Shown: positions 1 through 20,295 of the stretch, piece after piece
Numbering within the stretch: position 1 is the stretch's first letter
Layout of the letters: every line of letters begins with the position of its first letter
Source of the DNA: a virus
Strand: one strand, 5' to 3'
Virus record (IMG/VR): IMGVR_UViG_3300050006_000850
Location: 1 to 39,756 of that record
Length of the DNA: 39,756 nt
Translations under genes and position numbers: made by a program
Notes under the pieces: model-generated
The model's database searches: none
What the model saw: only the letters and a program-made list of their open reading frames with translations
Told to the model about the DNA's origin: nothing

Positions 1-2910
1 AAGTACCAGTCGGTCATGGCGGGCAAGGAGGAGCTGGATGGCAAGTCCGGTCCCGAGGCCATCCGCGAGAAGCTGGAGGACATCAACGTCGACCAGCGGC
101 TGCGCCAGCTGCGCCGGAAGATGGACAAGACCGAGGCGCCAGCATCCCTGGCCAAGATGAGGAAGGAGACCCGCTACCTCGAGGCGCTCCAGGCCAACGA
201 GATGACGCCGAGCGACGCCTACCTCATGTCCGTGGTGCCCGTGCTCCCACCGTCGATGCGGCCGGTCTCCGTGATGGACGGGGGCGACCTCAACACCCGC
301 GACATCAACGGCCTGTACAAGTACCTCGCCATCTCCAACCGCCAGCTCCGGGAGTTCGACCCGGGCCTGCCCGAGACCGAGCGGAAGAAGCTGCAGGCCG
401 AGGTCTACGACGACCTCCGTGCCCTGACGTTGACGGGCAAGAACATCAACAAGCAGCAGTACCGTGGCGTGATGGAGACGATGAAGGGGGTGCCCCAGCC
501 CAAGGACTCCTTCTTCCAGAAGAACCTCATCAGCCGCAAGCAGGACCTCTCGATGCGGTCCATCATCATCCCCGAGCCGGCGATGGGGCTGGACGAGGTG
601 GGGATCCCCTACTCCCTGGCGAAGGAGACCTACAAGCCCTTCGTCGTGAGGAAGCTGCGGCTCGAGCAGGGGATGACCCCGCTCGAGGGGCAGAAGGAAG
701 TGGAGAAGGGCACGGAGCTGGCGCGGCGCACCCTGGAGCGCGTGCTGGAGGAGCGGCCCGTCCTGCTGAAGCGCGACCCAGTGCTCCACAAGTTTGGCAT
801 CATGGCCTTCCAGCCCAAGGTCGTGGGGGGCAAGGCCATCCGGATCCACCCGCTGGTAACCGGCGGGTACAACGCCGACTTCGACGGCGATGCCATGTCT
901 GCCTACGTCCCCCTCACCCACGAGGCGGTCAACGAGGCGCACAAGATGTTCCCCTCGCGCAACCTGTTCAGCCCCACCTCGGGGCGGCTGATGTACCAGC
1001 CCGGACACGAAGCGCAGCTCGGTCTGTACCGGCTGACGAAGTGGGGGGACCGCACGGGGCACGAGTTCAAGTCCGAGAAGGAAGCTGCGAAGGACGCGGC
1101 CGAGCTCGGCCTGGGGATGACCGATGTCATCACCGTCGCGGGCAAGGAGACGACGCTCGGCCGGCTGCTCATCAACAGGGCGCTGCCGAAGGGGCGCCGT
1201 GGGGACAAGAAGCTCCTCCACCAGCCCAGCTTCCTGTTGGACAAGGGTGAGGCACGGAAGCTGCTGACCGACCTGGCGGAGAAGCACCCCAACGACTTCG
1301 GGGAGTCGGTCAACCAACTGAAGGACCTGGGCAACAACTACGCCTACCAGTCCGGCTTCTCCGTCAGCCTCCGGGACTTCTCCCCCCAGCGTGCCATCCG
1401 CGACCGCATCCTCGGTGCTGCCCACCGGGAGGTGGCCGCCATCCACAAGCGCCGGGACATCTCTGAGGAGAAGCGGGAGGAGCTGGCGGCCGCGGCGTAC
1501 CAGAAGGCGACCAATGAGATGACCCGGGTCATCAAGCCGAAGCTGTCCCGGGAGAAGAACAACGCCCTGGAGCTGGTGTCCTCCGGTGCACGCGGAGACT
1601 GGGACCAGCTCCGCCAGATCGTCGTGGCCCCCATGCTCATCAAGGACGCGGCCGACCGTCCCATCCCCATCCCCATCACGAAGAGCTACGCCGAGGGCCT
1701 GGACACCGCGAGCTACTTCACCACGATGCAGGGCGCGCGCAAGACGATGATCCAGAAGACCAAGGAGACGGCCAAGCCCGGCGCCTTGACCAAGGACATC
1801 GTCAACTCGGCCATGAACATGCTCATCATCCCCGGGGACGCCCCCGACGACTCCGAGGATGGAATCTTCCTGGACACCGAGAGCCGGGAGATCATCGGCC
1901 GCTTCCTGTCGAAGCCGGCCAAGCTCCGGACGGGGGAGACCCTCCCACGCAACACGGAGCTGACCCCCGAGGTCATCACGCGCATCCGCAACGCGGGAGC
2001 GAAGCGGGTCTCGGTGCGCAGTCCTCTACGCAGTGCTGCAGCCCAGGGGCTCTACGCTCGGGACTACGGGACCCTCCCCGGCGGTGAGCTGCCGGAGCCA
2101 GGGACCAACATCGGCATCATCGCAGCCCAGGCGTTGGGTGAGCCGGCGACTCAGCTGTCCATGAAGGCGTTCCACCATGGCGGGGTGGCCAGCACCAAGG
2201 GGAAGGTCACGGACTCGTTCACCCGGGTGGAGAACCTGCTGCAGATGCCCGCGACGCTGCCGGACTCTGCCACCCTGGCGGAACGTGGTGGGCGTATCTC
2301 CAGGATCGAGAAGGACAAGGACGCCGGCGGGCTCAACGTGTGGGTGGAGGACCAGCGGCACTACGTCCCCGAGCACCTGGTCAACCAGGGGTTGCACCTG
2401 CGCAAGGGTGTGGCCGTGAAGCGCGGCGACAGACTGTCGGCAGGCCCCATCAACCCGCACGAGCTTCTTCCTTTGACCAACGTCAACACCGTGAGAAACT
2501 ACCTCACGGACGAGGTGCACACTGCGTACAAGGACTCGGGGGTCCAGCGGAGGAACGCTGAGGCAGTTATCCGTGCTATCACCAACCTCGGTGTGGTACG
2601 AGACCCGGCGGGGGATCCCACGTTGTTGAAGGGTGACCTCGTCTCGGTGTCGCAGATGGAAGCGCGCAACCGGAAGTCGAAGCGTCCGGTGACCTTCAAG
2701 CCGGTGCTGCGCGGTGTGAATCAGACGCCACTGGACATGCAGACGGACTGGATGGCCCGTATGCAATACCAGAGGCTGCAAGATACAGTGGTGGACGCAG
2801 CCCTGAAGAATTGGGGCAGTGACCTTCACGGGATGCACCCGGTGCCTGGTATGGCCTACGGTGCCGAGTTCGGGAAACCAGCGCTGGGAGTGACGAGCTT
2901 CAAGTACTGA
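1..2910 (+). CDS. rpoC: RNA polymerase beta' subunit (5' end outside window)
   Basis: This is the catalytic largest subunit of a multisubunit RNA polymerase. The frame is open from base 1, and the first ATG at 16 is not the true start because homology to the beta' clamp region is already under way there. In order I see the segment ending VLPPSMRPVSVMDGG (canonical 'IPPDLRPMVQLDGG'), the double-psi barrel with the metal-binding triad NADFDGD at visible codons 291-297, a bridge-helix region starting SGARG near codon 525, and the trigger-loop region IIAAQALGEPATQLS near codon 705. A jaw/C-terminal part ends at residue 969 of the visible frame. The layout is that of a cellular beta' in one chain, not split as in phiKZ-type phages. 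It is followed after 9 bases by virion-type genes. One copy of the CGACAGWCTGTCG palindrome lies near its 3' end. The missing N-terminus should lie upstream. Confidence 0.93.
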   Translation, partial: KYQSVMAGKEELDGKSGPEAIREKLEDINVDQRLRQLRRKMDKTEAPASLAKMRKETRYLEALQANEMTPSDAYLMSVVPVLPPSMRPVSVMDGGDLNTRDINGLYKYLAISNRQLREFDPGLPETERKKLQAEVYDDLRALTLTGKNINKQQYRGVMETMKGVPQPKDSFFQKNLISRKQDLSMRSIIIPEPAMGLDEVGIPYSLAKETYKPFVVRKLRLEQGMTPLEGQKEVEKGTELARRTLERVLEERPVLLKRDPVLHKFGIMAFQPKVVGGKAIRIHPLVTGGYNADFDGDAMSAYVPLTHEAVNEAHKMFPSRNLFSPTSGRLMYQPGHEAQLGLYRLTKWGDRTGHEFKSEKEAAKDAAELGLGMTDVITVAGKETTLGRLLINRALPKGRRGDKKLLHQPSFLLDKGEARKLLTDLAEKHPNDFGESVNQLKDLGNNYAYQSGFSVSLRDFSPQRAIRDRILGAAHREVAAIHKRRDISEEKREELAAAAYQKATNEMTRVIKPKLSREKNNALELVSSGARGDWDQLRQIVVAPMLIKDAADRPIPIPITKSYAEGLDTASYFTTMQGARKTMIQKTKETAKPGALTKDIVNSAMNMLIIPGDAPDDSEDGIFLDTESREIIGRFLSKPAKLRTGETLPRNTELTPEVITRIRNAGAKRVSVRSPLRSAAAQGLYARDYGTLPGGELPEPGTNIGIIAAQALGEPATQLSMKAFHHGGVASTKGKVTDSFTRVENLLQMPATLPDSATLAERGGRISRIEKDKDAGGLNVWVEDQRHYVPEHLVNQGLHLRKGVAVKRGDRLSAGPINPHELLPLTNVNTVRNYLTDEVHTAYKDSGVQRRNAEAVIRAITNLGVVRDPAGDPTLLKGDLVSVSQMEARNRKSKRPVTFKPVLRGVNQTPLDMQTDWMARMQYQRLQDTVVDAALKNWGSDLHGMHPVPGMAYGAEFGKPALGVTSFKY
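2427..2439. promoter_or_regulatory. 13-bp palindrome site 1, CGACAGACTGTCG
   Basis: Perfect dyad with a central A, inside the beta' gene (codons for D-R-L-S). It is one of six identical-core copies in the window. Function is inferred only; see findings. Confidence 0.7.
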
Positions 2911-9148: not shown

Positions 9149-9646
9149 TCACTTGTGCGGCGGGTGTCTCCAACCGCAGATTGGACAGATGGGCACGGCG
9201 TGGATACCCTTACCATCCCTCACGAGCTTCAGTCCTGTCTCTCGAGAATGGGCGCTGTGTGTAAGCACGGTAAGGTTCTCCAGGCGGTTGTCCAACGTGT
9301 CACTGTTCTTGTGGTGGACATGCTCGCCTTGTGCCAACTTCCGCCCGAGATGCTGCTCCATCAAGAGTCGGTGCTCGTAGGCCCACCGCTTCTGCCCAGG
9401 AATCTTGACTTGTGCATACTTGAGGTACCCGGAGATGGTGACGACCCTGCGGCTACCGACAGGCTTGGTGCGGGTCTTCTGCGCCCTCCGGAGGCCGGCC
9501 TGCTGCCCTGGCGTCTGTGGGCGTCGGTGCCCTGGGAGGCATTTGTTGTAGCCCTTGTGGCGCCCCTGCTTGTCGTAGCGGGGAGGCACGTGTGCCCCAC
9601 ACCCGCAGGCGCAGAGTTTTGTTACTGTCCGTGTGCCTTTTCGCAT
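9149..9646 (-). CDS. free-standing HNH homing endonuclease
   Basis: A 165-residue protein starting at ATG 9646. The N-terminus has a cysteine cluster (CACGCG...C) typical of a small zinc-binding lead. Residues 90-135 carry the HNH core with HVHHKNSDTLDNRLENL, where the HH and N residues form the beta-beta-alpha metal site. The C-terminus has CPICGW. Such endonucleases cut DNA at their own insertion site and spread by repair. The gene is opposite to all neighbours, is visibly less GC-rich, and lies exactly between two versions of the same N-terminus (9119 and 9683), so it looks recently inserted. No Shine-Dalgarno site is visible; a -10-like TATGCT lies six bases before the ATG. Confidence 0.9.
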   Translation of the reverse strand: MRKGTRTVTKLCACGCGAHVPPRYDKQGRHKGYNKCLPGHRRPQTPGQQAGLRRAQKTRTKPVGSRRVVTISGYLKYAQVKIPGQKRWAYEHRLLMEQHLGRKLAQGEHVHHKNSDTLDNRLENLTVLTHSAHSRETGLKLVRDGKGIHAVPICPICGWRHPPHK

Positions 9647-9682: not shown

Positions 9683-12600
9683 TTGCCTTTTTCCAGCGAG
9701 CGGCAGAGACGGAAGTTCTTCGCGATGGCGGCGCGCGGGGAGATCTCCAAGGAGACCCTGGAGGAGTGGCAGGATTCCACAGGGGACAAGGAGCTGCCCG
9801 AGAAGGTCGGGTCTGGCCTCCGGTCGGCCCTGCGCATAGTGTCCTCAGAGCCCGGCGCGGGCCTGCGCAACTTTGAGTTCCACCTTGGGGACAAACTCAT
9901 CGGTGTCATCACCACCAAGGGTGGGCGCGTCTACAAGTCCTGGTTGGACTCGTCCTTCCGTGGGATGGGGCTGGGGAAGAAGATGTACGGTGAGACCATG
10001 CGCCGGCTGCCTGGCCAGCAGATGCGCAGTGACACCCTCGTCACGGAGCCTGCCGCCAGGGTGTGGCAGGGCATGGCGGCGCGCCCCGGGTATACACTGA
10101 AGGCTAGCCCGGACATCACCCGCGGTGCAGTTGAACCTGTCGAGTACTACCTCCCCCTCAAGCCGGAGCTGAGCCCCCTTGAGAACATCAAGAGAGACAT
10201 GTGGTCGGCGCGTCTGCCCGAGGCCGCTGCCATCAAGACGGCCAAGGCGGTCAAGGTTGGGCCCCCACCCAAGCGCAACAGGAAGAAGTGGCCCTACCAG
10301 GGCTCCATCAACTTCCGCGGCCTCGACATCCTGGTGGAGAACAAGCGCGGCACCGACCGTGTATGGACCGACGAGAACAACAAGGAGACCGGCCGCACCA
10401 GGATGCACCACCACTACGGTGAGGTGCGCCGGACCCTCGGCCCGGACGGTGACCCGGTCGACGTGTTCGTTGGCCCCGACCTCGACGCCGACGTGGTGTA
10501 CATCGTCCACCAGATGAAGCGGCCGAAGTACGAGGAGTACGACGAGGACAAGTGCATGCTGGGCTTCCGCACCGCCAAGGAGGCGAAGGCGGCCTACCTC
10601 ATCCACTACGACAGCCCCAAGTTCTTCGGGTCGATGACGACCATGTCCTTCGAGGACTTCAAGAAGCTGCTGAAGCGTCGAGATGTGAGGGGCAAGAGGA
10701 TCACCGAAGCTCTCATCAAGGTGGGGGCGCAGCTGTTCTTCCCCAGCGCCAGAGGTGAAACCGTTTTGGGGGGTACCCCAGAAAACGCCCCTACTACGGG
10801 GTCCATTTTGGAAAGCCAACTGCACAAGTTGGGCGCGATGGAGAAGGAGGCCCTCAACGAGCGTCTGCTCGCTCGCGTCTTCGGGAGGGAGTTGGAGAAG
10901 CACGGGCTCAAAGCCCATGACGTGCTCCAGGAGATGATCCACGGGTACGGGAAGGTGCATGTCCCGAAGGCGCTGAGGGACCAGATCCTTATCTGGGAGA
11001 TGATAACAACCCCCATGACATCTGGTGGGGCCATCCACCCGTACGGACTCCCTATTGAGCGGGTTGCACAGCGACTGGGCCCGAAGCATCAGCGGACGCA
11101 CGCTTACGTTGCCCAGCGGGTGGCCAAAGATGAGGCACGGAGGACGGATGCAGCACGGAGGGTAGCCCTACTCGGAAGGCACAACCCCGGGGAGGCTGTC
11201 GTCGGGGGTGTCCCCAAGACTGTGACAGACCGGGGTGTCCCCATCCCCGGCCCCGGGTACGCTCCGGACGCGGTGGCCTTTAGGGGGAGGCCGGGGCCGG
11301 GCGAAATGTACCACAAGCCGGGCCCACGGTGGGTGTCTGCTCACCCTGACATCTCTGCCGGGTATGAAGCTAGCACCCGCCATGGACACTTGGCGCGCAG
11401 GCTCAGACGCCTGACTGCGTATGACACCCACAAGATGGAGATGGCAGGACCCTGGACTCCGCACACCGCTGATGTCCCCGGACTTCTAACAGGCCTACGG
11501 GCACGGTTGGGGGGTCTGCGCCAGAAAGCTGGGCGGTCGGGTTGGGGGGAGTCCCCAACCTACGAGCGCGTGGTCCCATCCGCCGAGTTGGAGGCGAGCC
11601 TCCTATCAGAGTACAAGCCGTTGGTTGGTGGAGGGTACCAACGCGTGCGGGGGCCTGCGGTTCTAGGCGAGTCCGGGGGGGCTAGGGCCTCGGCCCCGCC
11701 CAGCACAGGACCAAGATCTGGGGCATCTCTGGAGAGAAAGCTCCTTCTGGGGGGTGCGGCTACGTTAGGGGCGGGGGCGGTAGTGGCCCCATCTGTTGCC
11801 ATCCCTGTAGCCCTTGCCTCCAGGTCGTCGGAGAAGCGGGGGTCCATTTTGGGAAACCAACTGGACAAGTTGGGTGCCAAGGGCATCCCGAGCAAGAAGA
11901 AGCGAACTGACCCACCGAAGCTGACCAGCCCGCAGACGATGGAGTTCGTCACCCAGCTGCACCACGCGCACAGAGCGGGGTGCTTCCCGGATGGGGCTCC
12001 CATTACCATGCCCGATGGGCGGGTGCTGCCTATTGAGCAAGTACCTATTGGTGCCTCGGTCTGCACACGAGGGGGGGTTGCACGCGTAAATCGATTGTGG
12101 GATAATGGACCTGCCTCCCAGTGGGTGCTGATGACCGCGAGAGACCTGGAGGTGTGCTGCACACCCACTCACCCAGTGTGGGTGGTTGCCTGCGGATGGG
12201 CCCCCGCCCTGGCACTCAGTGACCTGCGTTGCTGGGCGGACGAAGTCGGAGAAGTCCATGTCCACGACGAAGATCTGTGCCGTGTGCGGGGGCGAATTCA
12301 CGACCTCCGACAAGAGGACAGTCACCTGTGGGCGGAGCTGTGGGACGCGCTTGGGGCACCGGCGGAGTGGCCAAAGGGTTATCCCCATCTCCCGGCAGGA
12401 GCGCACGAAGAGGGTCGAGCGCGCGGCGCAACAGCACAAGAAGCAGAGGCAGGCCAAGTGGCCACAGCTCGACGACGCCCACTGGCTGGAGGCGCAGTAC
12501 CGGGAGGGGCCCCTCTCGCTGGAGGAGATCGGGCAACTCGTAGGGTGCAGTCGCACAGCTGTGACTGCCGCGCTGCAGCGTCTGAAGATCCCAATGCGGA

Positions 12601-14872
12601 CGGCTGCGGAGAGCCGGGTGCTGGCCGGCCGGAAGATGCGTGGGGAGAGCCACTACAACTGGAAGGGAGGCATGTACAACGGGCGGCCGATGGGAGAGGG
12701 GGGCCTCTACAGCCGAGCGAAACTGAGGAAGGCTGTGGTCAAGAAGCGGGGGCACAAGTGCGAGTGGTGCAGGAAGACGCACAGGGTCGAGCTGCACCAT
12801 GTGGTCCCGTACAGGTTCTCAGCAGACAACAACGACGACAATCTCCTGCTTCTCTGCCCGAGCTGCCACGGGAAGGCGGACAAGCTGTTCCTCACGATGG
12901 CTGGGGAGTTCTTCGCATCCGCAGGCTCCCCCGGGCTGCCCGACGCCGTCTCGACCTTGAGGTCGAAGGTACGCACTGCTACTACGCAGGCGGCTTCTTA
13001 GTCCACAACAGCCACATCGACCTGCGGCTGGGAGACACCAAGTCGGGCATCGCCCACTCCTGGGCGCTGCCGAAGGTCATCGTGCCGCAGCCCGGGGAGA
13101 AGGTCCTGGCCGTGCAGCAGCCAGACCACACCATCCACTACATGGACTTCCGCGGGCTCATCGGCCGTGGGTACGGCGCGGGCACCGTGAAGGCCGTGGA
13201 CCGCCTGCAGACCGAGGTCCACCACTCCGAGCCCGGGAAGGTGAAGTTCCGGTTGGACCGCGGCCGGGGGGGCGAGGAGTTCATCCTGCGGCGCACGGGC
13301 AAGCACGACCAGAGCACGAAGTGGCTCCTGCAGAACGTCACCAAGGAGAAGACGGCGTTCTTCTCCGCTGTGAACAACCTGCCGCAGTCGTCGTGGAAGC
13401 ACCGCTGGATGGAGAAGCGGATGCGCGCGGGCAAGGACCTCGGGCTCCACACGAACGCAGAGGTCGGCAAGGCCTTCCACAGCAACCCGCACTGGTTCAG
13501 CGCGTTCCCCACCTACGTCCAGACCTACAAGGTGGCCTCTGCACACGAGAAGACGGCCGCCGGTGGTGCGCTGGGGGAGGCCCTGCTCAACACCCTCCGG
13601 ATGCCTCAGACCGCGAACACGTACCGCCGGGGTGCCCGCTCCTTCTCCAACTGGGTGCACCGTGGCCTGACCAAGGAGGTCCCCGGGACCCGGGGGATCC
13701 AGCTCCTGCCCAAGGAGACCGCAGACGCCTTCGCCGCCATCGGGGCCGACAGCCCCCTGGCCATCCCTGCGGCGGCGTCGGCAGGGGCCTCGTTCCCGGT
13801 CCCAGGCTCGGGGGAGCTGGCGACCTACCTGACCCTCCTGGCCGACAGGTACGCGACACGTGCCCTCGGGGGGACTCCGCCGGCGCGCACTACTGAGGCC
13901 ACGAAGCACCTGGAGGGGCTGGTGCGGAAGGCCGGGAAGAAGTGGATCGGTCAGAGCCCGGAGACTGCGGCGCCGGCTATGCGCACCGGGCTGGAGGGTG
14001 CGCCCCCCATCATCAGCAAGGTCGCGAGCGCCCTGGAGGAGCACGTCGCCTCCTCCAGCGAGCAGGTCCTGGAGGCGGTACGGGCACGGGTGAAGCTGGC
14101 GGCAGCGGGTCCCATCATCCCGACCCCCAGGCACCTCGAGATGGCCGAGGAGATTGTCGCAAACGACAGTCTGTCGCAGGACAACTGGCTGACCTTCCAA
14201 CAACGACTGCAACGGAGCCCTGGCTATCGTCAGGCCGTTCTGCTACACCCCCAAGCCGACGCCAAGCTGAAGAGGCATGTGCGGGCCATGGGCGCTCTGC
14301 ACGAAGGAACCCACCTAAAAAAGGTGCAGTCGCTGAGCGGCCCATCGACATACCAGCTGAAGCTGATGTCTTCTGGGCGCCTGGGCTGTACCTGCCCAGA
14401 CTGGCGGTACCGCAAGTCGCACGGTGGGGGCGACTGCAAGCACGTTCGGGCGTTCCGGTCGGCCTACGACGCCGGTGAGATGCCGCGTGGCTACAAGGGC
14501 TTGCAGAACGCCCTGAAGAAGGTCTCCTCCGTGGTCGCCGCGAAGGTCATCAAGCAGTCCCTCGACGATCTGCCGAGGATCTTACGCAGTGCCGTGAGGA
14601 ACTACCCCAACCAGACCGTGAGGTCGGCCGAGGTAGTCGCTCAGGCACCGCCGTGGGTCAAGGCGTTGCTCCCCAAGGGCTTCAAGCAGCAGCTCGGGAG
14701 TGCTGGGTGGACCGCAGACGTGATGACCAAGGGTGTGACCACCCCCAGCGAGCTGGTCGGCAAGAACATCCAGAAGGCGTTCGACAAGCGGTACGCAGAC
14801 TCCTGGCGCCAGGCACGCTCCGCGGGCCTCGACCTTCCGGCCAGCATCAAGCGGATGGGCTTCGGCAGCTAG
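9683..14872 (+). CDS. giant polyvalent protein, intein-containing precursor
   Basis: A 1,729-residue precursor, 1,386 after splicing. It starts at TTG 9683 with GGAG six bases upstream. Regions in order: MPFSSERQR start; GNAT-like fold at residues 53-155 (FRGMGLGKKMYGE); predicted inorganic-pyrophosphatase-like domain of phage polyvalent proteins at residues 195-335 (GDPVDVFVGPD, then DEDKCMLGF); a cassette at residues 374-720 containing YHKPGPRWVSAHPDISAGYE, weakly like ADP-ribosyltransferases; LigD 3'-phosphoesterase-like domain around the intein (LHHAHRAG joined to SHIDLRL...SWALPK, matching the family's H...HxDxR metal site); and a SWIM zinc finger near residue 1569 (CTCPDW...CKH). Polyvalent proteins are thought to be injected with phage DNA to counter host defence. 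The domain names are from motif recognition; the GNAT and ADP-ribosyl calls are weakest. Its stop overlaps the convergent RNase HII stop. Confidence 0.85.
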   Translation: MPFSSERQRRKFFAMAARGEISKETLEEWQDSTGDKELPEKVGSGLRSALRIVSSEPGAGLRNFEFHLGDKLIGVITTKGGRVYKSWLDSSFRGMGLGKKMYGETMRRLPGQQMRSDTLVTEPAARVWQGMAARPGYTLKASPDITRGAVEPVEYYLPLKPELSPLENIKRDMWSARLPEAAAIKTAKAVKVGPPPKRNRKKWPYQGSINFRGLDILVENKRGTDRVWTDENNKETGRTRMHHHYGEVRRTLGPDGDPVDVFVGPDLDADVVYIVHQMKRPKYEEYDEDKCMLGFRTAKEAKAAYLIHYDSPKFFGSMTTMSFEDFKKLLKRRDVRGKRITEALIKVGAQLFFPSARGETVLGGTPENAPTTGSILESQLHKLGAMEKEALNERLLARVFGRELEKHGLKAHDVLQEMIHGYGKVHVPKALRDQILIWEMITTPMTSGGAIHPYGLPIERVAQRLGPKHQRTHAYVAQRVAKDEARRTDAARRVALLGRHNPGEAVVGGVPKTVTDRGVPIPGPGYAPDAVAFRGRPGPGEMYHKPGPRWVSAHPDISAGYEASTRHGHLARRLRRLTAYDTHKMEMAGPWTPHTADVPGLLTGLRARLGGLRQKAGRSGWGESPTYERVVPSAELEASLLSEYKPLVGGGYQRVRGPAVLGESGGARASAPPSTGPRSGASLERKLLLGGAATLGAGAVVAPSVAIPVALASRSSEKRGSILGNQLDKLGAKGIPSKKKRTDPPKLTSPQTMEFVTQLHHAHRAGCFPDGAPITMPDGRVLPIEQVPIGASVCTRGGVARVNRLWDNGPASQWVLMTARDLEVCCTPTHPVWVVACGWAPALALSDLRCWADEVGEVHVHDEDLCRVRGRIHDLRQEDSHLWAELWDALGAPAEWPKGYPHLPAGAHEEGRARGATAQEAEAGQVATARRRPLAGGAVPGGAPLAGGDRATRRVQSHSCDCRAAASEDPNADGCGEPGAGRPEDAWGEPLQLEGRHVQRAADGRGGPLQPSETEEGCGQEAGAQVRVVQEDAQGRAAPCGPVQVLSRQQRRQSPASLPELPREGGQAVPHDGWGVLRIRRLPRAARRRLDLEVEGTHCYYAGGFLVHNSHIDLRLGDTKSGIAHSWALPKVIVPQPGEKVLAVQQPDHTIHYMDFRGLIGRGYGAGTVKAVDRLQTEVHHSEPGKVKFRLDRGRGGEEFILRRTGKHDQSTKWLLQNVTKEKTAFFSAVNNLPQSSWKHRWMEKRMRAGKDLGLHTNAEVGKAFHSNPHWFSAFPTYVQTYKVASAHEKTAAGGALGEALLNTLRMPQTANTYRRGARSFSNWVHRGLTKEVPGTRGIQLLPKETADAFAAIGADSPLAIPAAASAGASFPVPGSGELATYLTLLADRYATRALGGTPPARTTEATKHLEGLVRKAGKKWIGQSPETAAPAMRTGLEGAPPIISKVASALEEHVASSSEQVLEAVRARVKLAAAGPIIPTPRHLEMAEEIVANDSLSQDNWLTFQQRLQRSPGYRQAVLLHPQADAKLKRHVRAMGALHEGTHLKKVQSLSGPSTYQLKLMSSGRLGCTCPDWRYRKSHGGGDCKHVRAFRSAYDAGEMPRGYKGLQNALKKVSSVVAAKVIKQSLDDLPRILRSAVRNYPNQTVRSAEVVAQAPPWVKALLPKGFKQQLGSAGWTADVMTKGVTTPSELVGKNIQKAFDKRYADSWRQARSAGLDLPASIKRMGFGS
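10802..10836 (+). repeat. direct repeat copy A (35 bp) at a cassette boundary
   Basis: 35 bases starting TCCATTTTGG, encoding part of GSILESQLHKLGA. It matches copy B at 31 of 35 positions. A hairpin-like CGTTTT...AAAACG element (10762-10787) lies just before it. Confidence 0.8.
11843..11877 (+). repeat. direct repeat copy B (35 bp) at a cassette boundary
   Basis: Second copy, encoding part of GSILGNQLDKLGA. It lies exactly 1,041 bases (347 codons) after copy A, so the intervening segment is in frame. Confidence 0.8.
11981..13009 (+). mobile_element. intein in the LigD-like phosphoesterase domain
   Basis: A 343-residue intein at precursor residues 767-1109. Block A begins with Cys (CFPDGAPITMPDG). 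Block B is CCTPTHPVW with the TxxH motif. The C-terminal block is YYAGGFLVHN followed by the nucleophile Ser of the extein. It interrupts the phosphoesterase active-site motif between LHHAHRAG and SHIDLRL, a typical conserved-site insertion. In the intein frame the middle (about residues 90-320) is compositionally odd and matches no endonuclease, because the endonuclease is encoded there in the +1 frame (12258-13001). All splicing residues look intact. Confidence 0.9.
12258..13001 (+). CDS. HNH endonuclease encoded out of frame inside the intein
   Basis: A 247-residue protein in the +1 frame relative to the surrounding precursor. ATG 12258 has its own Shine-Dalgarno site (GGAG, six bases upstream). 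Features in order: an N-terminal zinc-binding cluster (CAVC...C...SC); a helix-turn-helix near residues 90-115 (EEIGQLVGCSRTAVTAALQR); a HYNWKGG motif typical of HNH homing enzymes; and the HNH core CEWC...VELHHVVP...DNLLLLCPSCHGK near residues 170-215. Its stop at 12999-13001 overlaps the intein C-terminal block. It lies where in-frame homing domains usually sit in inteins, and would spread the intein by cutting intein-less alleles. It is expressed either as a separate internal gene or not at all. Confidence 0.88.
   Translation: MSTTKICAVCGGEFTTSDKRTVTCGRSCGTRLGHRRSGQRVIPISRQERTKRVERAAQQHKKQRQAKWPQLDDAHWLEAQYREGPLSLEEIGQLVGCSRTAVTAALQRLKIPMRTAAESRVLAGRKMRGESHYNWKGGMYNGRPMGEGGLYSRAKLRKAVVKKRGHKCEWCRKTHRVELHHVVPYRFSADNNDDNLLLLCPSCHGKADKLFLTMAGEFFASAGSPGLPDAVSTLRSKVRTATTQAAS
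14164..14176. promoter_or_regulatory. 13-bp palindrome site 2, CGACAGTCTGTCG
   Basis: Perfect dyad with central T within the polyvalent gene (codons for N-D-S-L-S). Confidence 0.7.
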
Positions 14873-15504
14873 AAGCTGGAGCGGCTCGACTTGTAGGGCG
14901 CCTTCTCATCCAGGAACTTCCCTGTGTAGCGCATCCGGTGGATGGGGGTGGCCCCGTGGTCCTTGAGCCCCTGGATGTGATGCACCGTTGGGTACCCGAC
15001 GTTGGTGTCGAAGCGGTAGCCGGGGTACTGCCGGGCGTACTCGAGCATCAGGCGGTCACGCCACACCTTGGCGATGATGGAGGCCGCGGACACCTGCCAC
15101 CACTGCAGGTCAGCTGTGTTCAAGGCCAGCTGGGGGAGCCCCAACGACCGCAGCTTGTACCGCTCACCGTCGACGATGACGATGTCCGGGGTGACCTCCA
15201 GGTCCTGTACGGCGCGCCGTAGGGCCTGCTTGTGTGCGACGTGGATCTCCAGCTTGTCGATCTCCTCGGGGGTGGCCCACCCGATGCCGACGTCGATGGC
15301 TGCGTCGATGAGGGGCTCGAACAGACGCTCACGGGCTGCCCTGCTCAGCTGCTTGCTGTCGCGGTAGCGGTGGTCCTTGACCCGCACGACGCGGGCAAAG
15401 AGCTCGGGGAATGGACAGATGAGTTCGTCGTACACAGCGGCGACGGCGACGACGGGGCCCGCCAGGGGGCCTACGCCCACCTCGTCCAGCCCCGCCACCC
15501 TCAT
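14869..15504 (-). CDS. rnhB: ribonuclease HII
   Basis: A 211-residue RNase HII, which nicks RNA in RNA-DNA hybrids and at embedded ribonucleotides. I chose ATG 15504 (MRVAGLDEVG), not the longer frame from 15582. It has a strong GGAGGAG site six bases upstream, overlaps the previous stop as ATGA, and matches the usual family start. Catalytic acids are visible: DE at residues 7-8, DSK, VIVDGERY, and the AASIIAKVWRD block with its Asp. GYPTVHHI and GATPIHRMRY are the usual C-terminal motifs. The normally conserved GRG of DEAGRGPLAGP is GVG here (DEVGVGPLAGP), an unusual change in the loop that reads the RNA-DNA junction. The stop codon shares CTAG with the stop of the opposite large gene. Confidence 0.95.
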   Translation of the reverse strand: MRVAGLDEVGVGPLAGPVVAVAAVYDELICPFPELFARVVRVKDHRYRDSKQLSRAARERLFEPLIDAAIDVGIGWATPEEIDKLEIHVAHKQALRRAVQDLEVTPDIVIVDGERYKLRSLGLPQLALNTADLQWWQVSAASIIAKVWRDRLMLEYARQYPGYRFDTNVGYPTVHHIQGLKDHGATPIHRMRYTGKFLDEKAPYKSSRSSF

Positions 15505-15941
15505 CTGCCCCTCCTCCGCTTGGATGTTGAACTTCTTCCGAAGCCACCGCCGCGTCGTGATGGCACTGGCCGTTTGTCCCATGGGGTGTAGTTGGTTCCT
15601 CCGCCACCGCGGTACTTGATATGCAGCGTGGCAGTGATGGTCAGGGGGGTAACTTCCACTGACCGGGGTTCGATGTCATTCAGCCTGGCCCACTGGGTGA
15701 CCAGGTCCTTCACGTAGCGGGCGCTTCCGTCCTCGAGGGGGTGCTGTAGGTGGAAGACGACCGTGGCGAGGTCCCTGCGGGTTGGGTCCTCGTGGGTGGT
15801 GGAGCCACGCATTGTACCACAGGCCCGCTGCAGCGAGCCGTAGAGCAACTCGACCCACTCCAGCCTCTGGGCTAAGAGACGGTCGACGGGCGGCCCCGGG
15901 GAAACCCCGGGACCACCCCTCTTCGTCGGCCTGTCAGCCAT
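15501..15941 (-). CDS. unknown small protein with basic tail
   Basis: A 146-residue protein that I do not recognise. It starts at ATG 15941 (GTG 15944 is an alternative), inside the end of the upstream gene, and ends in an ATGA overlap with RNase HII. The body, residues 20-110, is a mixed alpha/beta domain (VELLYGSLQRACG; VEVTPLTITATLHIKY). The last 35 residues are rich in Gly, Arg, Ser and Lys and probably bind nucleic acid or are disordered. The tight coupling to RNase HII and the ParB-like gene suggests a common minus-strand operon. Confidence 0.65.
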   Translation of the reverse strand: MADRPTKRGGPGVSPGPPVDRLLAQRLEWVELLYGSLQRACGTMRGSTTHEDPTRRDLATVVFHLQHPLEDGSARYVKDLVTQWARLNDIEPRSVEVTPLTITATLHIKYRGGGGTNYTPWDKRPVPSRRGGGFGRSSTSKRRRGR

Positions 15942-17304: not shown

Positions 17305-20295
17305 TTGCGTCAGTCACTGCTGCAATCCTCGGGGCTGGCTCGAGTTCGGGTGAATCGGGACGAGCAGCTCGCCCGGCGAGAAGAGGTACATGACCCGGAG
17401 TCCCTGGTCTATGCTCGCCCCTCGGACTTCACCGAGTACGCGATTCGGGTAGTAGACCAGAAGGCCAACAAGGTCGTTCCATTCTCGTATGCGGAGCGCC
17501 GCTACCTCCGGAGAATCTACGACACCGGGGCCAAGCGCGTCTTGCTGAAGTGTGGCCGGCAGGTCGAGAAATGCCTGAACGCGCGTTCAGTAGTCTCTCT
17601 CGCGTCGGGTGCCCCAAAGGGGCTGAAGGACGTTCAGGTCGGTGACACGGTTGTGGGGTTGGGCGACAACACGGCCCACACCGCGGCAGGAGTGGTCACC
17701 TGGAAGTCGGAGGAGCTACGGAAGCCCTGCGTTCGCCTCCGAACACGTCAGGGCCACGAGACCATCATCGCACTGACGCACCCGATGCGAACGTGGGGGG
17801 CGTGGACCGAGGGGGGTGCGCTGAGAGTCAAGTCCCGCCTTGCTGTGGCCCGGCAGGTCGGTGATTTCACGGGTGATGGTGGCCCACACGACCACGAGAT
17901 CGTGCTGCTGGCCTACATGATCGCCGAGGGGTACACACCCGACGCACCTCACTGCTCGTTCACTCAGAACGAGGAAGGGCCGGTGCTCGGGGAGTTCCTT
18001 GACATCGTGCACGACAGGTTGGGGGACCAGTACGACCCACACGAACGGAAACGGGCACTGTGGCAGCTACGGTTCGGCAAGGATTCTCAGCTGCAGGGCC
18101 TTGTCGAGAAGTGGGGGCTCCGTGGGCTCCTCTCCCCCACCAAGTTCGTCCCAGACTTCGTCTACAGCCTCGACCAGTACCAGACGGCCCTCTTCCTCAA
18201 CCGCCTCTGGGCCGGGGATGGGCACTGCAGCTTGCAGGGCTCCTCGTACCACCTCGAGTACGACACTGTCTCCAAGCGCCTCGCGCGAGATGTGCAGCGG
18301 CTACTCTGGAAGTTCGGCATCCCTACCAGCTTCCGTTCTTGGAAGCCCAAACTCTACGAGGGTACCGACAAGTGGGCCCACAAGCTACGCGTCGAGACCC
18401 AGGAGGGCGCACGCAGGTTCATCGAGGAGATCGGAGCGCTGGGCAAGACCGAGCACCTCCCACTGTTGGGGGTGGATGCGAACAGCAACCGAGACACGTA
18501 CCCGATGGAGATCGCCGAGGACATCAAGGCAATCCACAGGTCGCGCGCTGGGTATCACCGACGGGGGCGGTACGTGCCCCAGCCATCGCTCCGCTCGGTG
18601 GGTCTCCGAGAGAAGCCCAAGTACCCCCTGACCCGGGAGAAGTTGAAGGAGTACGTCGACTTCTTCAACTCGGACGTCGGGTTCGACCGGCCGCTAGTCA
18701 ACCAGCTGCGTGCCCACCTGGACACTGACCTCTTCTGGGACGAGATCGTCGAGATTGAGGACGTCGGGGAGCAGCCCTGCTACGACATCACCGTCGAGGG
18801 CACCGACAGCTTCATCGCCGACGGATTCGTGACGCACAACAGCACCATGCTCGGCAACCGGATGCTGTCGATGTGCTGCCTCAATACGGGCTTCAAGTGC
18901 CTGTATGTGTCCCCCACCCACTCCCAGACGAATACGTTCAGCCGCGACAGACTGTCGGACCCCATCACGCTGTCCCCGATTCTCTCGTCCTGGACGACGA
19001 CCAAGCTCACCGACAACATCCACCTCAAAAAGTTTATCAACCACAGCAACATCACCCTGCGCTACGCGTACCACAACGCTGACCGTACCCGCGGTATCCC
19101 CTCGGACATGGTCACCATCGACGAGCTGCAGGACATCCTGATGACCAACATCCCGGTCATCGAGGAGACGGCATCGCACTCCCCTTGGGGCCTCTTCGTC
19201 TACTCGGGTACGCCGAAGTCGACCGACAACCCCATGGAGCACTACTGGGTCTACTACTCGCGGCAGAACGAGTGGATGGTCCCCTGCGAGCACCACGGTA
19301 CCCCCAAGCGGCCAGCCAGCTGGCACTGGAACATCCTGGGCGAACGCAACATTGGCCTGCACGGGCCCATCTGCGACAAGTGCGGAGAGACCATCGCCCC
19401 GATGCACCCGGCCGCGCACTGGCGGTCGCTCAACCCCAAGCCCGACATCCCCGAGCCCTTCGAGGGGTTCCGCATCCCGCAGCTGATGGTCCCCTGGATT
19501 GGCTGGACCGACATCCTGCAGAAGCAGAAGTTCTACGGGCGCGCCCAGTTCTACAACGAGGTCCTGGGCCTGAGCTACGACTCGGGGACACGGCCCATCA
19601 CACGCAGGCACCTCCGGGCGATCTGCAACCCCGAGCTGTCGATGGCGCGGGACGGCCTGGAGAAGATCCAGAACAGCCTGGGTGGCGCCCGGGTCTTCAT
19701 GGGCATCGACTGGACGGGCGGCAGCAACAAGAGTTTCACGGTGGCTACCCTGGGTGCCTACCTCCCGGGCAAGCGGGTGTTCTCCTTCTTCTACGTGCAC
19801 CGCTTCGAGGGCCAGGAGTCCGAGCCCGAGACCCAGCTGGAGCTCCTCAAGCAGCTCATCCGGAGCTGGCACGTGGACGTCGTGGGGGTGGACTTCGGCG
19901 GTGGCTACTGGCCCAACAACGAGCTCATCAAGGCCTTTGGCCCGCACCGGGTCATCAAGTGGCAGTACAGCCAGCCCAGCGAGAAGTGGCGGTGGGACGC
20001 CGGCCAGCAGCGGTACATGGTGAACCGCACGGCCGTGATGACGGACTTCTTCAACGCCCTGAAGCACTCCGACCGCCAGATCTTCGAGTTCCCACAGTGG
20101 GAACAGTTCCGGGAGCCCTACGCCACGGACTTCACCAACATCTTCAGCGAGTACAACGAGTCCCTCCGCCTGGACGAGTACAAGCTGGCCCCGGAGATGA
20201 CGGACGATACCTGCCACTCCGCCCTCCTGTGCCTGCTGGCCTCCACCCTCCGCATCCCCCGACTCGACATCTTCGCAGTGCAGCAGGAAACATAG
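17305..20295 (+). CDS. terL: terminase large subunit, intein-containing precursor
   Basis: A 996-residue precursor, 573 after splicing. It starts at TTG 17305 with AAGGAGG four bases upstream. The product is the DNA-packaging motor: an ATPase that drives DNA into proheads and a nuclease that cuts the concatemer. Walker A is CGRQVEK joined to ST (residues 83-89 plus the extein after the intein), with Glu where most P-loops have Gly. Walker B is MVTIDELQD near residue 602, and a coupling motif SGTP follows. A zinc-ribbon-like pair C..H/CDKC lies near residues 660-700. The RuvC-like nuclease has its acidic residues in GIDWTGG (about 800), VGVDFGGG (about 861) and DDTCH (about 967). The stop is followed by a strong hairpin. 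Palindrome site 3 lies just after the intein. Confidence 0.95.
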   Translation: MRQSLLQSSGLARVRVNRDEQLARREEVHDPESLVYARPSDFTEYAIRVVDQKANKVVPFSYAERRYLRRIYDTGAKRVLLKCGRQVEKCLNARSVVSLASGAPKGLKDVQVGDTVVGLGDNTAHTAAGVVTWKSEELRKPCVRLRTRQGHETIIALTHPMRTWGAWTEGGALRVKSRLAVARQVGDFTGDGGPHDHEIVLLAYMIAEGYTPDAPHCSFTQNEEGPVLGEFLDIVHDRLGDQYDPHERKRALWQLRFGKDSQLQGLVEKWGLRGLLSPTKFVPDFVYSLDQYQTALFLNRLWAGDGHCSLQGSSYHLEYDTVSKRLARDVQRLLWKFGIPTSFRSWKPKLYEGTDKWAHKLRVETQEGARRFIEEIGALGKTEHLPLLGVDANSNRDTYPMEIAEDIKAIHRSRAGYHRRGRYVPQPSLRSVGLREKPKYPLTREKLKEYVDFFNSDVGFDRPLVNQLRAHLDTDLFWDEIVEIEDVGEQPCYDITVEGTDSFIADGFVTHNSTMLGNRMLSMCCLNTGFKCLYVSPTHSQTNTFSRDRLSDPITLSPILSSWTTTKLTDNIHLKKFINHSNITLRYAYHNADRTRGIPSDMVTIDELQDILMTNIPVIEETASHSPWGLFVYSGTPKSTDNPMEHYWVYYSRQNEWMVPCEHHGTPKRPASWHWNILGERNIGLHGPICDKCGETIAPMHPAAHWRSLNPKPDIPEPFEGFRIPQLMVPWIGWTDILQKQKFYGRAQFYNEVLGLSYDSGTRPITRRHLRAICNPELSMARDGLEKIQNSLGGARVFMGIDWTGGSNKSFTVATLGAYLPGKRVFSFFYVHRFEGQESEPETQLELLKQLIRSWHVDVVGVDFGGGYWPNNELIKAFGPHRVIKWQYSQPSEKWRWDAGQQRYMVNRTAVMTDFFNALKHSDRQIFEFPQWEQFREPYATDFTNIFSEYNESLRLDEYKLAPEMTDDTCHSALLCLLASTLRIPRLDIFAVQQET
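17572..18840 (+). mobile_element. LAGLIDADG intein in terminase Walker A
   Basis: A 423-residue intein. It begins with Cys 90 of the precursor (CLNARSVVSLASG), block B is IALTHPMRT, and it ends FIADGFVTHN before Ser. Two LAGLIDADG (DOD) blocks are visible: LLAYMIAEGY near intein residue 112 and FLNRLWAGDGHC near 208, giving a monomeric homing endonuclease. The intein splits the ATP-binding motif GRQVEK/ST, so the terminase is inactive until splicing. All splice residues look intact. Confidence 0.95.
18945..18957. promoter_or_regulatory. 13-bp palindrome site 3, CGACAGACTGTCG
   Basis: Perfect dyad with central A in the terminase extein (codons for R-D-R-L-S). Confidence 0.7.

Follow-up and report, generated by a model that had tools for sequence, protein, structure and literature searches.

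Inteins are usually described with their homing endonuclease as an in-frame domain, while split inteins, which are encoded by fractured genes, have a free endonuclease gene between Hint-N and Hint-C. A nested layout has been published as a single case, the insertion in the terminase large-subunit gene of a brucellaphage (PMC4422536). In the ShiLan domain, an HNH gene likewise lies out of frame within a stop-free insertion in a phage gene, and the +1 residue is Pro in uninvaded alleles and Ser or Thr in invaded ones; in this insertion, neither self-splicing domains nor a ribosome-binding site could be detected (PMC11855218). The same paper cites a 2025 preprint on the "non-canonical architecture" of actinobacteriophage inteins (Gosselin et al., 10.1101/2025.01.02.630785), which, judged from its title, may describe the layout considered here.

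The locus that we studied is a phage gene in which a mini-intein, situated in the active-site loop of a phosphoesterase (PE) domain, has very probably taken up a whole HNH endonuclease gene in a different reading frame. Its host gene differs from that of the brucellaphage case, and the accessible part of that report treats neither two-frame selection nor prevalence, our comparison being with its description rather than its sequence. With ShiLan, the PE intein shares the hidden out-of-frame HNH and the +1 Pro/Ser pattern, but it has Hint halves, a Shine-Dalgarno motif, and an ATG; the presence of Hint domains places it outside the ShiLan type, which is marked by the lack of self-splicing domains. 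It also differs from a canonical LAGLIDADG intein, such as the one in the terminase gene of the same phage, where the endonuclease domain is in the frame of Hint; here, the Hint halves are in the host frame and the HNH is in the +1 frame. As in split inteins, the endonuclease lies between the Hint halves, but here the host frame continues unbroken across the endonuclease gene.

The window, i.e., the whole stretch of viral DNA that was analyzed, comprises 39,756 nucleotides (IMG/VR record IMGVR_UViG_3300050006_000850). The host gene and its domains are as follows.

9683-14872, plus strand: host gene for a polyvalent-type phage protein (ORF call, homologue L003)
9887-10027, plus strand: weak GNAT-like stretch (Pfam Acetyltransf_1, E 0.085, under the cutoff)
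10298-10675, plus strand: InPase domain PF18823, residues 206-331 (Pfam E 1e-33)
11942-11980, plus strand: first part of the PE domain, EFVTQLHHAHRAG, in the N-extein (spliced domain against PDB 3p4h, PF13298)
13010-13297, plus strand: second part of the PE domain, SHIDLRLG..., in the C-extein, with Ser at +1 (Pfam, PDB sequence search)
14387-14452, plus strand: weak SWIM-like CxC...CxH (Pfam E 0.012-0.056, under the cutoff)

From a TTG start, the ORF encodes a precursor of 1,729 aa, which becomes 1,386 aa after splicing. A sequence-only reading made earlier had proposed this giant ORF and a mature protein of 1,386 residues; the former is upheld by a homologue on contig 3300013112_000677 (L003), which starts at the equivalent codon (MPFKSEAQRRKF...), and the latter equals the precursor minus the 343-aa intein. 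The profile search that the earlier reading had called for bears out its pyrophosphatase-like domain (the InPase match above). Its LigD-type phosphoesterase likewise stood: the match to LigD_N PF13298 went from E 2.4e-11 for the unspliced to 1.3e-14 for the spliced protein, and the joined domain matched solved LigD phosphoesterases in a PDB sequence search (3p4h, E 1.4e-15; 3n9b, 6.6e-11). The remaining parts of its multidomain call fared less well, since both GNAT and SWIM fall under the Pfam gathering scores and have weak support, the CxC...CxH motif of SWIM being discernible. The description as a polyvalent protein, one very long phage protein with several enzymatic domains, fits the InPase and PE domains, the weak GNAT and SWIM matches, and the modular homologue. 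The intein was implied in that reading solely by the words "mature protein," and the HNH frame at 12258-13001 went unmentioned.

The homologue L003 (3462-9263 of its contig; 1,934 aa) is free of the intein and has repeated NERLLAR/ELERHG modules and a RecX_HTH2-like repeat region. InPase, PE, and SWIM are common to both proteins and the modules in between differ; from this comparison, the polyvalent protein is modularly reshuffled. The earlier reading saw the main interest of the locus in an injected polyvalent protein whose phosphoesterase would repair or edit DNA ends, with removal of a host defence mark as a further proposed role. The confirmed InPase and PE domains speak for this view, which we regard as possible but rather doubtful, and which is compatible with the intein reading rather than contrary to it.

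The intein and its splicing halves occupy the following positions.

11981-13009, plus strand: intein, 343 aa in the host frame (empty sites in L002 and L003, splicing blocks, AF2 Hint fold, gp41-1 profile match)
11981-12265, plus strand: Hint N-terminal half, residues 1-95, blocks A and B (pLDDT about 84-98 per 10-residue block)
12905-13009, plus strand: Hint C-terminal half, residues 309-343, blocks F and G (pLDDT about 87-96 per 10-residue block from residue 311)

When residues 767-1109 of the precursor are read as an insert, ...FVTQLHHAHRAG joins SHIDLRLGDTKSGIAHSWALPK..., and the intein is seen to lie inside the PE active site, at HHAHRAG/SHIDLRL (the slash marks the insertion point). In the alignment with 3p4h, the insert falls between the two conserved His of HHAxR...HxDxRL, which we take to be part of the LigD metal site, and the HxAxxxHxDxRL metal-site motif of the LigD 3'-phosphoesterase is complete after splicing. 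The PE active site at this locus cannot exist before the intein leaves. A search of viral contigs with the joined PE domain recovered L002 and L003, which are 93 and 90% identical over the domain. Both align up to 11980 and resume at 13013, with flanks 85-91% identical, and their PE reads HHAHKAG-PHIDLRIG without interruption, the intein being absent at the exact point. At +1, both empty alleles encode Pro (CCG) and the intein-bearing gene encodes Ser (AGC); Ser can serve as a splicing nucleophile, while Pro cannot.

The hallmarks of an intein are present, namely Cys1, a block B TPTH (H64), the end GGFLVHN/S, and Ser at +1, and C1, H64, H342, and N343 are invariant in A3. AF2, given 42 sequences (the intein and 41 others from the fetched loci), modeled residues 1-95 and 309-343 with confidence, and the middle between the Hint halves (residues 123-305, ~180 residues) had a pLDDT of about 30. 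In a Foldseek search with the Hint model, all 50 of the 50 matches listed were inteins or Hint relatives (BIL, hedgehog), including Mtu RecA, Prp8, PI-SceI, and gp41-1, and a profile of the intein set matched the gp41-1 intein in the PDB (6qaz, 1.2e-19). Taken alone, the intein reached E 0.006 at best against the Pfam Hint families, and the full ORF gave a weak Vint (Hint) match. The host-frame middle of the intein is no protein domain, and both splicing halves share the reading frame of the host gene. By these comparisons, 11981-13009 is an intein with exact boundaries and is predicted to splice; this particular intein is known from a single metagenomic contig.

The second gene within the intein comprises the following features.

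12258-13001, plus strand: nested HNH endonuclease gene, 247 aa and a TAG stop, in the +1 frame with respect to the host gene (PF01844, G+C by position, codon usage)
12248-12251, plus strand: GGAG, a Shine-Dalgarno-like motif 6 nt upstream of the nested ATG (sequence)
12276-12341, plus strand: CxxC...CxxxC zinc-finger motif at the N-terminus of the nested protein (sequence)
12759-12875, plus strand: HNH catalytic motif CEWC..ELHHVVP..DDN..CPSCH, residues 168-206 (PF01844)
12999-13001, plus strand: TAG stop of the nested gene, formed from the Leu-TTA and Val-GTC of block G (sequence, codon usage)

The nested protein (MSTTKICAVCGG...CEWCRKTHRVELHHVVPYRFSADNNDDNLLLLCPSCHGK...) scored 28.2 bits against HNH PF01844 (cutoff 21.4; E 2.1e-6) and has both the H-N-H residues and a zinc ribbon, and the four Cys of its zinc-finger motif correspond to near-invariant columns of the survey alignment. 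Between about 12230 and 12980 (12233-12982), G+C by codon position followed the HNH frame; on either side, it followed the host frame. Using a codon score trained on the codon usage of the window's other genes, we obtained +0.55 bits/codon for the nested ORF, compared with -0.58 for the host frame over the same DNA. The DNA of the last 32 HNH codons is shared with Hint-C, so that the C-terminal half of Hint overlaps the 3' end of the nested gene and is dual-coding. When the codons of the HNH gene were shuffled synonymously, the host frame was stop-free in 0.3-0.6% of shuffles (P 0.003-0.006). No clear close relatives of the nested HNH were found in phages, viral contigs, or plasmids, and its single-sequence AF2 model was poor. 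The boundaries, the in-frame Hint halves, the +1-frame endonuclease with its Shine-Dalgarno motif, ATG, and stop, and the stop-free host frame can all be read directly from the DNA.

We then looked at other phage and viral inteins. Searched with the Hint-N half, phage records yielded similar inteins, and three of the five examined share the nested layout, the nested gene being unannotated in all three records.

Pseudomonas phage MR14: helicase, nested DUF559 nuclease (1.2e-11)
Acinetobacter phage Highwayman: TerL, nested HNH_3 (2.2e-14)
Rhodobacteraceae phage LS06-2018-MD07: TerL, nested HNH_3 (2.3e-13)

For a wider survey, we took the 80 IMG/VR loci listed for an exact DNA pattern of the block-G motif, an endonuclease not being a criterion, and counted a locus as nested when an ORF of 90 aa or more, read in a frame other than that of the host gene, stopped 4-73 nt short of the block-G end. 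The layout was present in 51 of the 80 viral loci listed (64%, about two thirds of this one-motif sample). Of the 52 nested ORFs (these 51 and 12258-13001), Pfam assigned 34 to HNH_3, 15 to DUF559, and 1 to HNH, and 70 of 81 host-frame segments matched the Intein_splicing family. In this viral sample, HNH/DUF559 endonucleases were out of frame at 51 loci, compared with one in frame. With the same pattern, bacterial and archaeal genome contigs gave about 13 nested loci of 80 (Fisher p about 1e-9 versus viral). Three archaeal inteins (L168, L180, and L208), the counterpart of the phage layout, have a DUF559-type nuclease in frame. L007, L008, and L009 have inteins at one helicase site, and of these the intein of L007 alone contains a nested endonuclease. 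L005 and L006 were rejected as nested cases: they match the C-terminal block only, in a RecA mini-intein without a nested gene.

End points recurred, with frame +2 ending at -58 nt in 21 loci and frame +1 at -11 nt in 10; all 10 of the latter form their TAG from a YTA leucine codon, and 12258-13001 belongs to the same class. Over 49 distinct nested genes, the host frame contained 0 stops against 243.6 expected from synonymous shuffling, while the third frame contained 855 against 852.6 expected. We rejected the explanation that the host frames are stop-free through the choosing of open ones, as a closed host frame had caused the removal of no nested ORF. Among 13 related pairs, which are not independent of one another, nested-frame identity was at least as high as host-frame identity, the two being equal only in L029/L067 (99% identical), and substitutions at nested codon positions 1/2/3 numbered 403/334/630, position 3 varying most.

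These data bear on whether the nested frame is a decayed relic, i.e., a dead endonuclease in an element that persists by splicing alone. Endonuclease loss is frequent among inteins, and this HNH is without relatives for a selection test. We nevertheless consider a relic unlikely, since the HNH and zinc residues are intact, the codon usage is like that of the phage's genes, the stop is provided by TTA, which makes up just 3 of the 608 leucine codons (0.5%) in the window's genes, and, when other nested inteins are compared in related pairs, it is the nested protein that is better conserved.

Another way to make the HNH protein, instead of internal initiation, would be programmed ribosomal frameshifting out of the Hint N half, and the +1 frame is indeed open for ~70 nt upstream of the ATG (from 12186), so that a fusion is possible. 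Frameshifting would, however, truncate the host protein with loss of Hint-C, the ATG that opens the zinc-finger module is preceded by the GGAG at 6 nt, and 49 of the 52 nested ORFs have an ATG at most 25 codons from the ORF start; we give this explanation little credence. Shine-Dalgarno enrichment across the survey is modest, at 22 of 49 first ATGs versus 20% of controls.

Least credible of all is that an ordinary intein with its HNH domain in frame took on this appearance through two compensating frameshifts, either errors or recent mutations: this is a metagenomic assembly with one copy, in which indels flanking 12258-12950 would give such a pattern, but the layout recurs in the viral loci and three annotated phage records with recurring offsets and end points (assembly error as its source being rejected for the class by this recurrence), the host frame is kept stop-free, the nested gene has a Shine-Dalgarno motif, an ATG, and a stop at a block-G position common to ten others, and an HNH_3-type domain is in frame in only one of the 80 viral loci listed.

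We therefore return to the gain of a complete endonuclease gene by a mini-intein. A gene with its own start and stop would have entered the mini-intein loop. Arrival in frame would have put a stop into the host gene; arrival out of frame would be tolerated if the host frame stays open. Since the own stop of a free-standing endonuclease is harmless to splicing only out of frame, this is probably why the layout is common in phage inteins. Translation of the host frame would yield a precursor of Hint-N, an unstructured linker, and Hint-C, whose Hint halves would fold and splice, restoring the phosphoesterase, while internal initiation at 12258 would yield the HNH protein. The empty alleles L002 and L003 exist as candidate targets for this predicted homing endonuclease, which would cut intein-free alleles of their type at the highly conserved PE site, and repair of the cut allele would copy the whole element in. 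The HNH enzyme probably spreads the intein.

More broadly, we lean, on balance, toward the view that nested endonucleases are the dominant phage intein architecture and are overlapping genes selected in two frames, the sole duty of the host frame there being to stay open. They may also be a source of split inteins: L138 and L163, whose HNH gene overlaps Hint-C and whose host frame is closed 41-58 codons ahead of block G, resemble the split version, and we regard both, from their sequences, as candidate split inteins derived from the nested form. The nested form would then be a possible path to split inteins, as well as a simple route for free-standing endonuclease genes into mini-inteins. Nested endonucleases are invisible to host-gene annotation, and they amount to a large natural collection of genes that overlap on the same strand, with strong statistical support. 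New here are the host site, the phosphoesterase of a polyvalent protein, and the HNH family, PF01844 compared with HNH_3 or DUF559 in the survey loci; the statistics for the nested class may be new as well, and we claim no priority for the class itself.

Several neighboring genes deserve mention. The terminase large-subunit-like ORF of this phage (17305-20295, GpA_ATPase) carries its in-frame LAGLIDADG intein at about 17560-18840 (PF14528, 1e-12); because L002 and L003 align over most of 17305-20295, the terminase intein seems to be shared and the PE intein not. An RNase HII gene (14869-15582, minus strand; 4.9e-33) overlaps the 3' end of the giant ORF, and a free-standing HNH_3 gene (9149-9646, minus strand; 1.2e-12) lies shortly before the ORF begins; both are on the strand opposite to it. 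The plus-strand ORF beneath the HNH_3 gene begins MGSDMPFKSEDQR, and since this resembles the start of the giant protein, it is suggested that this HNH_3 gene invaded a related gene. Lastly, an ORF at 16-2907 (plus strand) matches phage RNA polymerase beta-subunit families (phrog_2987, 4.6e-17), and a multisubunit RNA polymerase may therefore be among the phage's own gene products.
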